From NCBI GenBank assembly GCA_026415985.1, contig JAOAGA010000083.1:1-5500 (forward strand): DNA of 5,500 bases. The letters run 5' to 3'. This DNA comes from Pseudomonadota bacterium (lineage in GTDB: Bacteria; CALINM01). Made by a program: the position numbers and the translations under genes. Shown in pieces: positions 424-4,619 of this stretch. How positions within the stretch are numbered: position 1 is the first letter of the stretch; each line of letters opens with the position of its first letter. The notes under the pieces were generated by a model. The model did no database searches. It saw only the letters and a list, made by a program, of their open reading frames with translations, and was not told where the DNA came from.

Positions 424-618
424 TTAAACCTTCTTTTCGTCCTTTTTGGTTTCATCTTTGGGAGTAACATCTATTGCGTCGGGTTCATTGACAGCTTTTT
501 TAAAATTTTTGATAGCCTTTCCTATTCCTGACCCAACCTCAGGTAACTTTCCTACTCCAAAGACAAGAACAACTATAACAAGTATCACTAAAAGTTCAGG
601 TAACCCTAATCCAAACAT
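424..618 (-). CDS. tatA: Twin-arginine translocase subunit TatA/TatE family
   Basis: Pore-forming subunit of the Tat system, which exports folded proteins across the inner membrane. The 64-residue protein has the full family layout: a short N-terminus [10 protein letters not shown] with E8, one transmembrane helix (about 7-20, rich in I, L and V), the FG hinge (F20-G21), an amphipathic helix beginning GKLPEVG and continuing through [11 protein letters not shown] (about 23-42), then a hydrophilic Lys/Glu/Asp tail (45-64). Its length is normal for a short TatA. The ATG at 618 is preceded by GGAGG (627-631) with an 8-nt spacer, which fixes the start. The gene begins 22 nt after the tRNA-Sec and has no clear promoter of its own in that gap, so it is probably read from the selC promoter. 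TatB and TatC are not in the window. TatA and TatE cannot be separated by sequence at this size. Confidence 0.95.
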
Positions 619-626
619 AAATCAAA

Positions 627-631
627 CCTCC
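627..631 (-). promoter_or_regulatory. Shine-Dalgarno sequence of tatA inside the tRNA-tatA gap
   Basis: GGAGG on the minus strand, 8 nt before the tatA ATG at 618 and 9 nt after the last base of selC. It lies outside the mature tRNA, so 3'-end cleavage of the tRNA would leave tatA with an intact ribosome binding site. Confidence 0.85.
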
Positions 632-640
632 GCTTTATTA

Positions 641-730
641 CGGAAGTGCATGGGAATCGAACCCACCTTCCCCTCTCGGGGAACATCGGATTTGAAGTCC
701 GTGGAGCCCACCAGGAGCCCTTGCACTTCC
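641..730 (-). tRNA. selC: tRNA-Sec(UCA), selenocysteine tRNA
   Basis: Carries selenocysteine to in-frame UGA codons with SelB, after serylation by SerRS and conversion by SelA. The 90-nt gene folds as a bacterial tRNA-Sec. It has an 8-bp acceptor stem (GGAAGTGC with GCACTTCC), a 6-bp D stem (720-715 with 709-704, including wobble pairs) closing a 5-nt loop, and anticodon loop CTTCAAA with anticodon TCA at 693-695. The long variable arm has a 6-bp stem (683-678 with 673-668) capped by GAGA. The 5-bp T stem encloses the loop TTCGATT. The 8+5 acceptor/T pairs and the 6-bp D stem separate it from tRNA-Ser. The discriminator is G. CCA is not encoded (TAA follows), so it must be added enzymatically. 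The fifth anticodon-stem position is an A-A mismatch (702 and 686). selA, selB and a SECIS-bearing gene are not in this window. Confidence 0.97.
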
Positions 731-736
731 ATAAAT

Positions 737-765
737 ATTTTATGCTATTATCAGGATGTAGTCAA
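737..765 (-). promoter_or_regulatory. Sigma-70-type promoter of selC (and probably tatA-tsaC)
   Basis: On the minus strand, -35 TTGACT (760-765), a 17-bp spacer, and -10 TAAAAT (737-742); each hexamer matches 5 of 6 consensus positions. Six bases separate the -10 box from the tRNA, so the usual start distance falls on G730, the first base of the mature tRNA. The promoter sits in the 46-bp gap after the methyltransferase-like gene. It was identified by eye and is not experimentally proven. Confidence 0.75.
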
Positions 766-776
766 AAAATTTATTT

Positions 777-1826
777 TTATGAATTGTCTATATACCTTGA
801 ATATTTATCCCTGAGTTTTTTGGATAAATCATTTAACCACAAATAGGCCGATTCTACTGTTTTGAACTCATCGGGATTTAATAAGGCACATGTTGCGGGC
901 ATAAGGATTGACTGTGATATTATTTCCTCAAGCTGAAAACCTTCTTTTATAAGCTCTAACCACAAACTCTCTATATGATGAATCAGATTTTCCTTTGACT
1001 CTTTCTGAAACTCATCATAGTTAGCAGGAACAAGCCCCCAGCCTATAATACCACCCTTTTTTAAAAATCTTCTTATGCTATCTTTATATCTGATAAAGAT
1101 CTCACCGCAATTGTAAGCATTAAAGGAAAGAATATCTATATCAAGATTAAGCAAGAAATCCCAGTCGGGATTACCGCAGAGGTGAATCCCTCTTGGATAT
1201 TCTATCTGATTGAAAAATATCTCAAAATCTGCCTTTGCCATATCATTTGTATAACCGGAGACACTGCTGAAGATATACTGTAGCCCCGGCTCATCAATGA
1301 AAAGAAAGGCTCTCTCATTTTTTTCTTTTAACTCTTTAAGCTGAACATTTGCCTTTCTTGCCATAAAATCAAAAAGTATTGACCTTACTTCTTCGCTGAA
1401 TATGATTGGTTTTTTATTTTCATCGAGAACCTTTAAGCCAAAGCTCACAGGACCTTCAATCTGACCTCTTATAGAGACATAATCTTTCAGCTCATGGGAT
1501 AAAAATTTATGATAGGTCACAGAAAATTTATCGGACATTCTAAAAAACTCTTCATTTTCCATATTAATCAGGGCATTCTCAAGCTCGTTATAAAACTTTG
1601 CTGTATTAAAGTAAATATTTAAGTTTTCCGGTTCTAAAACTATTCCGGGAAAATTTTCTGAAACCTGAACATACATATCCTCGTAGAAACTCATCTTAGG
1701 TAGCTGAGGCCAGAAAGGAATATCAACGGACATTGAGACATTAAGAGCTGAATCAATGTCTTTGTGAGGTAAGATTCCCATTCCTGTAGTAAGAAGATTT
1801 CCCCTAAAGGGCATTAAAGATTGCAA
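777..1826 (-). CDS. MetE/UroD-superfamily zinc methyltransferase-like protein
   Basis: A 349-residue protein resembling the C-terminal catalytic half of cobalamin-independent methionine synthase (MetE) and the UroD/MtaA corrinoid methyltransferases. Features seen are TGMGILPHKD near the N-terminus (14-23), DIPFWPQLPK (35-44), the strand ending LFIDEPG (175-181), and an H-x-C pair in IHLCGNPDW (H215, C217), with a later cysteine in PATCALLNP (C313). HxC...C is the zinc-ligand pattern of MetE and MtaA-type enzymes, so methyl transfer to a thiol or a corrinoid protein is likely. The substrate is unknown. The chosen start is TTG at 1826, which has GGAG (1835-1838) 8 nt upstream; ATG at 1814 is the alternative. 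An ATG at 1937 would add 37 unrelated residues and overlap the pilT gene by 95 bp, so it was not used. The gene begins 16 nt after the pilT stop, implying one operon, although no link to pili is evident. No corrinoid-binding domain is seen. Confidence 0.8.
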   Translation of the reverse strand: MQSLMPFRGNLLTTGMGILPHKDIDSALNVSMSVDIPFWPQLPKMSFYEDMYVQVSENFPGIVLEPENLNIYFNTAKFYNELENALINMENEEFFRMSDKFSVTYHKFLSHELKDYVSIRGQIEGPVSFGLKVLDENKKPIIFSEEVRSILFDFMARKANVQLKELKEKNERAFLFIDEPGLQYIFSSVSGYTNDMAKADFEIFFNQIEYPRGIHLCGNPDWDFLLNLDIDILSFNAYNCGEIFIRYKDSIRRFLKKGGIIGWGLVPANYDEFQKESKENLIHHIESLWLELIKEGFQLEEIISQSILMPATCALLNPDEFKTVESAYLWLNDLSKKLRDKYSRYIDNS

Positions 1827-1834
1827 TTTATCTA

Positions 1835-1838
1835 CTCC
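1835..1838 (-). promoter_or_regulatory. Shine-Dalgarno sequence that selects the TTG start of the methyltransferase-like gene
   Basis: GGAG on the minus strand, 8 nt before TTG at 1826 and 20 nt before the next in-frame ATG at 1814. It lies in the short gap after the pilT stop. The spacing favours the TTG. Confidence 0.6.
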
Positions 1839-1842
1839 ATCA

Positions 1843-2913
1843 TTACTCTTCAAGCAATATCTTTCTTTCAAAGTCTGTTGAACGGGATAACCTTTTTGCG
1901 TCTTCAAGGGTGATAAGATTTTTTTTGTGAAGTTCAAGAAGATGTTGATCCATCGTTTGCATTTTGTACATTAGATTACCGTTTTCGATATGCTTTTCGA
2001 TCTCTTCCAATCGCCCTTCTCTTATACAGGCCTGAATGGTTGTTGTCGCCCTCATTATCTCAACAACGGGTAAGATATTTTCACCTGACTTATCTTTTAT
2101 TAGTCTCAAAGAGATTGTTGCTACTATAATATCGGCAAGTCTATGCCTGATAATCTCCTGTGCATCAGGTGGAAAGTGCCCTACCAGCCGATTTATAGTT
2201 GATACCGCCCCCTGGGTATGAAGCGTTGAGAAGACAAGATGTCCCGTTTCTGCCGCCTTTATGCAGGCATCAATAGCATCCCTGTCTCTCATCTCACCAA
2301 CCATAATAACATCGGGATCCATTCTCAGTGCAGATTTTAAAGCGGTGTTAAAACTATCGGTATCAAAACCCACCTCTCTCTGAATAATGCAACTCTGTTT
2401 GGATCTGAAAAGAAACTCGATAGGATCTTCAATAGTAACTATATTGTAACTAAAATTTTCGTTAAGATAGTTTATCATAGCTGCAAGGGTTGTAGATTTG
2501 CCGTTTCCTGTTGGGCCGGTAACCAATATCAAGCCGTTAGGAGCCTGCGCTATCTCTGCAAGAACCGTTGGCAGGTTTAGCTCTTCGAAAGTTCCGATCT
2601 GGGGTGGGATAACCCTCATTACGATACCTATACTACCCCTTTGTCTAAAAAGGCTAACCCTGAATCTACCACCATTCGGCAGGGAATAGGTTGAATCCAT
2701 ATCATTTTTAAAAGACTCAATGGTAAGATTGTGTTGTTCCAATACTCTTTCTGCAATAAACTGTGTATCCTTTGAAGACAAATTAGGTAGCTTTGATTTT
2801 ATAAGCTGACCCTTGACACGAAAGAAAGGGGGATTATCTGCCTCAAAGTGTATATCAGAAACCCTCTTTTGAAAGGCTATCTCAAGAATCTGGTTGAAAG
2901 TTTTTAAATCCAT
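1843..2913 (-). CDS. pilT: Type IV pilus retraction ATPase, PilT family
   Basis: Hexameric cytoplasmic ATPase that powers type IV pilus retraction (twitching motility, DNA uptake). The 356 residues match the usual PilT length. The order is an N-terminal PAS-like domain (1-100, with SDIHFEAD at 19-26), Walker A GPTGNGKST (133-141), Asp box TIEDPIEF (160-167), REVGFDTDSF (179-188), Walker B DPDVIMVGEMRD (199-210, catalytic E207) and His box GHLVFSTLHT (224-233). TIQACIREGR (292-301) occupies the place of the AIRNLIREGK retraction motif and is partly diverged. Walker A has Asn where PilT usually has Ser, a tolerated position. The absence of the tetracysteine zinc site and of the large N-terminal domain argues against PilB or GspE. 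PilU or another PilT paralogue remains possible. The gene starts 14 nt after the upstream regulator and has no recognisable Shine-Dalgarno sequence, so it probably relies on translational coupling. Confidence 0.93.
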   Translation of the reverse strand: MDLKTFNQILEIAFQKRVSDIHFEADNPPFFRVKGQLIKSKLPNLSSKDTQFIAERVLEQHNLTIESFKNDMDSTYSLPNGGRFRVSLFRQRGSIGIVMRVIPPQIGTFEELNLPTVLAEIAQAPNGLILVTGPTGNGKSTTLAAMINYLNENFSYNIVTIEDPIEFLFRSKQSCIIQREVGFDTDSFNTALKSALRMDPDVIMVGEMRDRDAIDACIKAAETGHLVFSTLHTQGAVSTINRLVGHFPPDAQEIIRHRLADIIVATISLRLIKDKSGENILPVVEIMRATTTIQACIREGRLEEIEKHIENGNLMYKMQTMDQHLLELHKKNLITLEDAKRLSRSTDFERKILLEE

Positions 2914-2927
2914 ATATTTTCTATAGT

Positions 2928-4619
2928 TTATTCTGTCTTCTTACTTTTTTCAAACATTTTTCTATAAAGCATCAATTCCACTGAAGAGTTCAGAAAATCC
3001 CTGAGTATCTCAAATATCTCCCTGAAATAAACCTTTTTTTGAGTATCTCCATATAAAAAGGCTAACAATTTCCCTGCACCCTTTATGGGGATTAAAAATA
3101 TTTCTTCATCTTCAGGTTTACCAAAAAGGCTAAAAAAAGGTTCACTGTTTTCTCTGTCAAGTTTCCTATAAATTAGCTCTCCACTGTTTACTAAATCGTA
3201 AAGACCAGAGCTTAAAACAACTCTTTTGGGCAGATCCTGAATGGTTATTCCAATTACATTTTCAAGATAATAGCCATCCTTATGGGCTACCAAGATAGCG
3301 CTACGTTCGAAATAGTCAGAGATAAATTTTAAAGACAGATTTATGATTTCTGAAATTTTTGTGGCATTACCTATTTGATTTGTCAGATTCTTAAAATTTC
3401 TGATCTCACTATTATCTGAATAAGTTCCTAAATTTTTAATATAATTTTCTATCGATTCATAAAAAAGAATAACTTTCTCTATATTTTGTGAGTTATGAAC
3501 TGGTTTTGGAAAGACGGACAAAACCCCTTCCTTAAGCAGATTCAGAACGATTTCTTTATTTTCCCAGTCAACAAGCTGAATAAATTTTACTACCGGAAAC
3601 TTATTCCTTATCCCCTTTTTCAGATTATTATTTTTTTCACCGTTAAAGATATTCTCAGAAAGATAGTCTGTTATAACAACGGGTATTAATTGTTTTGATA
3701 GAGATTGCTTTATTATAATAGATATGTTGTCTACACTATCCGTTGTAAAAACAAAGACCCCCATTGATTTTGCCATGATGTTAATAACATAGGACATAAA
3801 CTCATCTTTGGTAAGTAAGATTATAGCAACTGAAATATCTTCTCTTTGCATTCTCTGACTGTATCTGGTAAGAAAATTAACTATTTTCTCTTCATCTGCT
3901 TTTGTAGCATCAGGAAATGCTATAAACACCTTTTTTCTGTGTGGTTCAGACAAATCCTGGGCATCGACACATTTAAATACTGATGGTATCTTTCTTTCTA
4001 TTTTGTCAATATTATCCAGACCGAGAATATCTTCTGATATAGTTATTTCTCCTTCAGGCTCTTCCTTCGCTCTAATCTGATGATCAAAAATACCCTTATC
4101 AAGTAAGTTATCTCTTCTCATCTCATCAAAGATTCTAAGAGATTCCATAAGGGTATTCTGGGTACTGATGTAGAAGCTACCTTTTAAAAGATCTGCAAGA
4201 TACTGAAAATTATCATCTACATCCATTTTGTCTACAACAAGCTGAAAATTACCGCTCTGCCATGTCAGGATATCCACTACCGTAAGTTCTACAAAACTCT
4301 GCAGAAGAGATAATGCCGATTCTGGGGTCAGAATATTTTGTTCTACCAGATATGCTATCAGCGGTTTACCCAAACTACCTTTTTTTTCAATTAAATTGTT
4401 AACGAAACTATCATCAATATTTTTTTTGTCTCTGATTACCCTCATAAGAGAAGAGAAGGTATCGGGATGGGATACACTGACTATAAGACCATCTTTCAAG
4501 GCAAATATATATTCCAAACCGTCGGTTCTTACATAAAGAGTTCCTGTTTTCTTGGTAGAGTTAAGAAGCTGGATAACATCTACGATTGGTAAATGCTCTA
4601 AATTTCCGCTAAATGACAC
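2928..4619 (-). CDS. PATAN (DUF4388) protein with degenerate receiver-like and GAF-like domains
   Basis: A 563-residue cytoplasmic signalling protein without a signal peptide or membrane span. Residues 1-150 form a PATAN/DUF4388 domain: it opens FSGNLEHLPIVDVIQLLN, continues TKKTGTLYV, has the FALKDGLIVSVSHPD strand pair, and its second half ends DILTWQSGNFQLVVD. An acidic linker follows (about 185-225). Residues 285-395 look like a response-regulator receiver: hydrophobic strand VFVFTTD, then PVVITDYLSENIFNG with D318 at the phospho-acceptor position, and a PKP turn (371-373) matching the conserved Lys-Pro. The usual acidic pair after strand 1 is poor, so phosphorylation is uncertain. Residues 415-555 resemble a GAF domain (LVAHKDGYYLENVIG, then EEIFLIPIKGAGKLLAFLYGD). 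The GTG start at 4619 is supported by AAAGGAG with a 7-nt spacer. It is the first gene before pilT and probably modulates PilT or pilus function; this is inferred from position. Confidence 0.8.
   Translation of the reverse strand: MSFSGNLEHLPIVDVIQLLNSTKKTGTLYVRTDGLEYIFALKDGLIVSVSHPDTFSSLMRVIRDKKNIDDSFVNNLIEKKGSLGKPLIAYLVEQNILTPESALSLLQSFVELTVVDILTWQSGNFQLVVDKMDVDDNFQYLADLLKGSFYISTQNTLMESLRIFDEMRRDNLLDKGIFDHQIRAKEEPEGEITISEDILGLDNIDKIERKIPSVFKCVDAQDLSEPHRKKVFIAFPDATKADEEKIVNFLTRYSQRMQREDISVAIILLTKDEFMSYVINIMAKSMGVFVFTTDSVDNISIIIKQSLSKQLIPVVITDYLSENIFNGEKNNNLKKGIRNKFPVVKFIQLVDWENKEIVLNLLKEGVLSVFPKPVHNSQNIEKVILFYESIENYIKNLGTYSDNSEIRNFKNLTNQIGNATKISEIINLSLKFISDYFERSAILVAHKDGYYLENVIGITIQDLPKRVVLSSGLYDLVNSGELIYRKLDRENSEPFFSLFGKPEDEEIFLIPIKGAGKLLAFLYGDTQKKVYFREIFEILRDFLNSSVELMLYRKMFEKSKKTE

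Follow-up and report, generated by a model that had tools for sequence, protein, structure and literature searches.

Most tRNAs are made with a leader that RNase P removes from their 5' end. Could a bacterium that possesses RNase P nevertheless start one of its tRNAs directly on the first mature base? The gene for selenocysteine tRNA (selC) raises this question in the window, the whole stretch of 5,500 nucleotides analysed here, which belongs to a 1.57-Mb assembly of 161 contigs that is 84% complete (genome G000). We think it probable, judging from sequence comparison, that selC has its own promoter and that this promoter starts RNA at G730, making tRNA-Sec leaderless and the RNase P step unneeded.

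selC and its promoter

641..730, minus strand: selC, tRNA-Sec with a UCA anticodon (ARAGORN; Rfam RF01852, 76.6 bits)
730, minus strand: predicted transcription start, coinciding with the first base of the mature tRNA (from promoter spacing)
731..736, minus strand: discriminator ATTTAT, 6 nt, between the -10 element and the tRNA; same length in the relatives G001 and G002
737..742, minus strand: -10 element TAAAAT of the selC promoter; aligns with TATAAT of both relatives
760..765, minus strand: -35 element TTGACT of the selC promoter; counterparts TTGATA in G001 and TTGTCT in G002

selC is the only tRNA gene that ARAGORN finds in the window (641-730, minus strand, anticodon tca), and the bacterial tRNA-Sec model of Rfam matches at 730-642 well above its gathering cut-off of 47 bits. 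The mature 5' end is G730 and the discriminator base is G641. Read from the sequence and the Rfam alignment, the acceptor stem has 8 bp (GGAAGTGC/GCACTTCC) and is accompanied by a 5-bp T stem and a long variable arm, as is typical of bacterial tRNA-Sec. The window gene does not encode CCA. This holds for the selC genes compared in its phylum (the window and loci L019 and L021), while most selC genes sampled elsewhere encode GCCA. SelA is present in all three genomes of the phylum compared here (G000, G001 and G002); the Sec pathway is therefore live.

The first-pass annotation had described a near-consensus promoter (TTGACT, 17 bp, TAAAAT) 6 bp before selC. It is indeed there, on the minus strand at 765..737, with 10 of 12 consensus matches. 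We define d as the number of bases counted from the last base of the -10 element to the first base of the tRNA, so that d = 6 for the window selC. Primary-sigma promoters most often start transcription on the seventh base after the -10 element; because ATTTAT is 6 nt long, this seventh base is G730, where the start is expected.

Could the hexamers simply be chance matches in AT-rich DNA? Promoter-like sites with at least 9 of 12 matches are not rare in the window as such, 23 being found where 19.7 are expected, and this lack of an overall excess is what a chance origin would predict. The position of the site is another matter. In dinucleotide shuffles of the 100 nt upstream of each selC, a site that scores as well and sits precisely 6 nt away has a probability of 0.0003 in the window, 0.0003 in one relative and 0.0007 in the other (0.002, 0.013 and 0.008, respectively, for a site anywhere within 40 nt); these values are not multiplied because the genomes are related. 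The same spacing is moreover the peak of the selC distribution across phyla, a peak that control tRNAs do not show (see below). We thus regard chance matches as very improbable.

Conservation in two relatives

The two other genomes of the phylum that we compared, G001 and G002, both belong to the family of the window genome. Upstream of selC, they read TTGATA-17-TATAAT-AGTTCT|GG and TTGTCT-18-TATAAT-AATTTT|GG, respectively, so that d = 6 in all three genomes. In alignment the tRNA is nearly identical, but the upstream DNA is scrambled except for the -10 element and its distance to selC. The spacing thus places the expected +1 at the mature 5' end in each genome, the arrangement that distinguishes a leaderless tRNA gene. 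The first-pass annotation had proposed comparing this distance in relatives, and had named a conserved leader as the contrary outcome: the 6 nt are kept in both relatives and neither has a leader-type promoter. Its prediction of a start at or adjoining G730 comes through this comparison well, the more so as other tRNAs of these genomes have different distances.

The exact base is a finer point. The promoter could be real and yet direct a start 1-3 nt ahead of G730, A732 being one candidate, or a mixture of starts, with RNase P trimming a very short leader. ATTTAT does offer a purine at 732. With primary-sigma promoters, a scatter of 1-2 nt in the start site is common, so a start slightly off G730 would look alike, and spacings of 7 and 8 occur besides 6 among the selC genes compared. 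In the relatives, on the other hand, G1 is preceded by four pyrimidines (TTTT, TTCT), which makes it the first purine at the usual distance. A pyrimidine at -1 in 24 of 25 short-spaced selC genes also fits a start at G1, weakly, as 148 of 189 other selC genes have one too. Taken together, a displaced or mixed start seems unlikely to us, and a start on G730 itself remains the reading we prefer.

Neighbouring genes and read-through

777-1937, minus strand: co-directional upstream ORF, methionine-synthase/UROD-like, 386 aa; weak match to NCBIfam NF002119 (E 4.6e-5)
1843-2913: PilT/PilU-family ATPase, beyond ORF 777-1937 as seen from selC
424..618, minus strand: tatA, 22 nt downstream of selC (Pfam TatA_B_E, TIGR01411)

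If most tRNA-Sec came from transcription through the upstream gene, the promoter would be minor and RNase P would cut as usual. The first-pass annotation had named pilT as the possible source of such read-through, but pilT does not lie directly upstream, ORF 777-1937 being placed between it and selC. This ORF is the only plausible source adjoining selC. Its stop codon sits 46 bp from G730, it runs in the same direction, and no terminator-like site lies in between, in a window that has about as many of them as chance predicts. Read-through could therefore add some RNA that needs RNase P, and the RNA and protein of RNase P are both present. In both relatives, however, the upstream neighbour of selC is a divergent, cobyric-acid-synthase-like gene, and the promoter and its spacing are kept all the same. 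There, read-through cannot supply selC, which therefore needs an intergenic promoter. We consider read-through as the main source quite improbable, even more so than a displaced start, and keep selC's own promoter as the likely origin of its RNA.

ORF 777-1937 yielded neither a Pfam family nor a sequence relative in the PDB, and at its listed start it overlaps with the last part of the pilT-like ORF. The pilT-like gene in turn adjoins a gene for a 563-aa protein (2928-4619) with an N-terminal DUF4388 and otherwise no family match.

Downstream, selC is followed by tatA on the same strand in all three genomes (window 424-730; L019 1501-1922; L021 1182-1590), an order that is constant despite the different upstream genes. 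Enzymes exported by the Tat system travel in folded form and can include selenocysteine-containing formate dehydrogenases, and the pairing of selC with tatA may be functional. Given the 22-nt gap between selC and the tatA start codon, tatA is probably on the selC transcript in the window. The gap is about 90-114 nt in G001 and G002, which leaves room for a separate tatA promoter. The one candidate terminator between the two genes of the window (647-626) was discarded: it overlaps the 3' end of the tRNA, and such sites occur at chance level.

Other tRNAs of the three genomes

Is the arrangement peculiar to selC? Scored in the same way, none of the first-in-cluster tRNAs of G000-G002 has a d of 5-8; the smallest value is 9, and many tRNAs are clustered. 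A promoter positioned for a start on the tRNA is thus not a property of all tRNA genes in these genomes. Lineage-wide leaderless tRNAs can be ruled out by these larger distances, together with those of other tRNAs in 16 further genomes, which were compared for having a short-spaced or related selC. An organism devoid of RNase P can be ruled out as well: each of the three genomes encodes both the RNA of RNase P (302-310 bits) and its protein, RnpA.

The long acceptor stem, as a poor substrate for RNase P, had been put forward as the reason for a leaderless selC. An 8-bp acceptor stem is likewise found in bacterial tRNA-His, which carries an additional 5' G; in all three genomes the -10 element of tRNA-His lies about 13-15 nt ahead of this base. 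With this, and with the leader-type promoter of E. coli selC, the stem falls short as an explanation. In a wider search, too few tRNA-His genes had recognisable promoters.

selC across phyla

We scored paired -35/-10 elements by their distance to the tRNA in two samples. The first comprises about 390 genomes, mostly one or a few per family, with a strong selC in 153 and 147 usable upstream regions. Here, d peaks sharply at 6 (13 genes, 0.6 expected from shuffles), with a shoulder at 7-9 and hardly any genes below 5. The second, named sample was drawn by a pattern scan and comprises 67 selC genes, mostly in sequences where the consensus scan finds few promoters; its peak is weaker, with the highest bar at d = 7 and 5 of 21 recognisable promoters at d 5-8.

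When the samples are pooled (215 selC), 75 genes have a recognisable promoter, and as a share of these recognisable promoters only, 22 of 75 lie at d 6-7; about as many, 25 of about 75, lie at d 5-8. The other 140 of the 215 have no promoter above threshold, for which divergent promoter types, GC-rich sequence or co-transcription account. By a hand count from family labels, the d 6-7 genes represent about 17 lineages, 13 of them families of the first sample; the second adds four contigs, recorded as a deltaproteobacterium, a Rhodospirillales bacterium, a Desulfovibrionaceae bacterium and a Clostridiaceae bacterium.

Other tRNAs behave differently. In the same genomes, the d values of initiator tRNA and of some further tRNAs peak at 11-14. 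Since initiator tRNA starts with C, we added tRNAs from 16 genomes, most of which were chosen for a short-spaced selC; 83 of these 92 tRNAs start with G, which answers the concern that the C start of the initiator controls is the source of the contrast. Among the added G-starting tRNAs with a recognisable promoter, none of 43 has a d of 6-7. Treating genes as independent, d 6-7 is found in 22/75 selC genes versus 0/62 G-starting controls (p = 4e-7) and 1/115 of all controls (p = 2e-9). For d 5-8, the figures are 25/75 versus 3/62 (p = 3e-5) and 11/115 (p = 1e-4).

The base at -1 was also considered as proof of the start site and set aside as weak: a pyrimidine is general there in selC, at about 80% whatever the promoter distance. 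This pyrimidine stands opposite the discriminator G73, so that precursors with a leader could form a -1:73 pair.

A proposed route to tRNA-Sec

We envision that a primary-sigma promoter of selC's own, with its -10 element ending 6 nt before the tRNA, would let RNA polymerase initiate at G730, where mature tRNA-Sec itself begins. The RNA as first made would then already have its mature 5' end and leave nothing for RNase P to cut; the exact start base and this bypass are what we infer as parts of the best explanation. The 3' side would be trimmed and CCA added, and the 3' cut would also free tRNA-Sec from the tatA message. A lasting 5' triphosphate could be a further part: pyrophosphohydrolases with a preference for unpaired 5' ends would work poorly on G1, which is base-paired.

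Leaderless tRNAs as such are already known. In vertebrates, tRNA-[Ser]Sec is transcribed from its first base onwards and retains the triphosphate. This is the same tRNA species, but it is made by RNA polymerase III from external promoter elements, and the vertebrate and bacterial versions are likely of independent origin. Streptomyces has tRNA genes that start at or near the mature 5' end. Their promoters are close to the tRNA as in selC, but they are not selC-specific and belong to another phylum; a paper on these starts was not found in the searched literature. Nanoarchaeum equitans, an archaeon lacking RNase P, makes leaderless tRNAs with 5' triphosphates (PMC10100707). Its promoters are placed for a start at the mature 5' end, as is predicted for that of selC; in contrast, they serve all tRNAs there, while here we find selC only, in bacteria with both RNase P RNA and protein.

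E. coli selC, with the same 8-bp acceptor stem, follows another design. Its -10 element TATAAT is 31 nt away from the tRNA and is accompanied by a GC-rich stretch, which gives a leader of about 24 nt. This agrees with the RNase P cleavage, at an unusual site, reported by Burkard and Soll (1988) as cited in PMC3874170. A leaderless selC is thus one of at least two designs and is not universal. Bacterial RNase P cleaves precursors of both tRNA-His and tRNA-Sec at an unusual position, and its cut between two Gs is inefficient (PMC3874170). Such unusual or inefficient cleavage is a possible selective reason for a leaderless selC, one that tRNA-His of the same genomes does not follow.

The searched literature, which lacks most subscription journals, yielded no description of a bacterial tRNA-Sec made without a leader; this absence is weak evidence of novelty. 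Published selC start sites were not found there either, although a C. difficile dRNA-seq study does list tRNA-Sec. The window may thus show a selC-specific promoter design that recurs among bacteria and is undescribed in the searched literature.

What a leaderless selC would mean

More broadly, and tentatively, since we hold it to be somewhat on the doubtful side, leaderless transcription could be widespread and specific to selC in bacteria that have RNase P. In many phyla the promoter would have repeatedly settled 6-7 nt away, tRNA-Sec would arise with its mature 5' end in place, and the triphosphate would perhaps mark tRNA-Sec off from the elongator tRNAs, in parallel to vertebrate tRNA-Sec. 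The start sites can be mapped by existing methods in the groups of many of the sampled organisms. If the proposal for selC is true, one bacterial tRNA would skip a near-universal RNase P step in cells that possess the enzyme, and the skip would be selective for the one tRNA that is an unusual substrate of RNase P by virtue of its long acceptor stem. Is the triphosphate then kept, and does it affect SerRS, SelA, SelB or EF-Tu? Is selC output set directly by GTP-dependent initiation? Bacteria would, in that case, have a counterpart of vertebrate tRNA-Sec.
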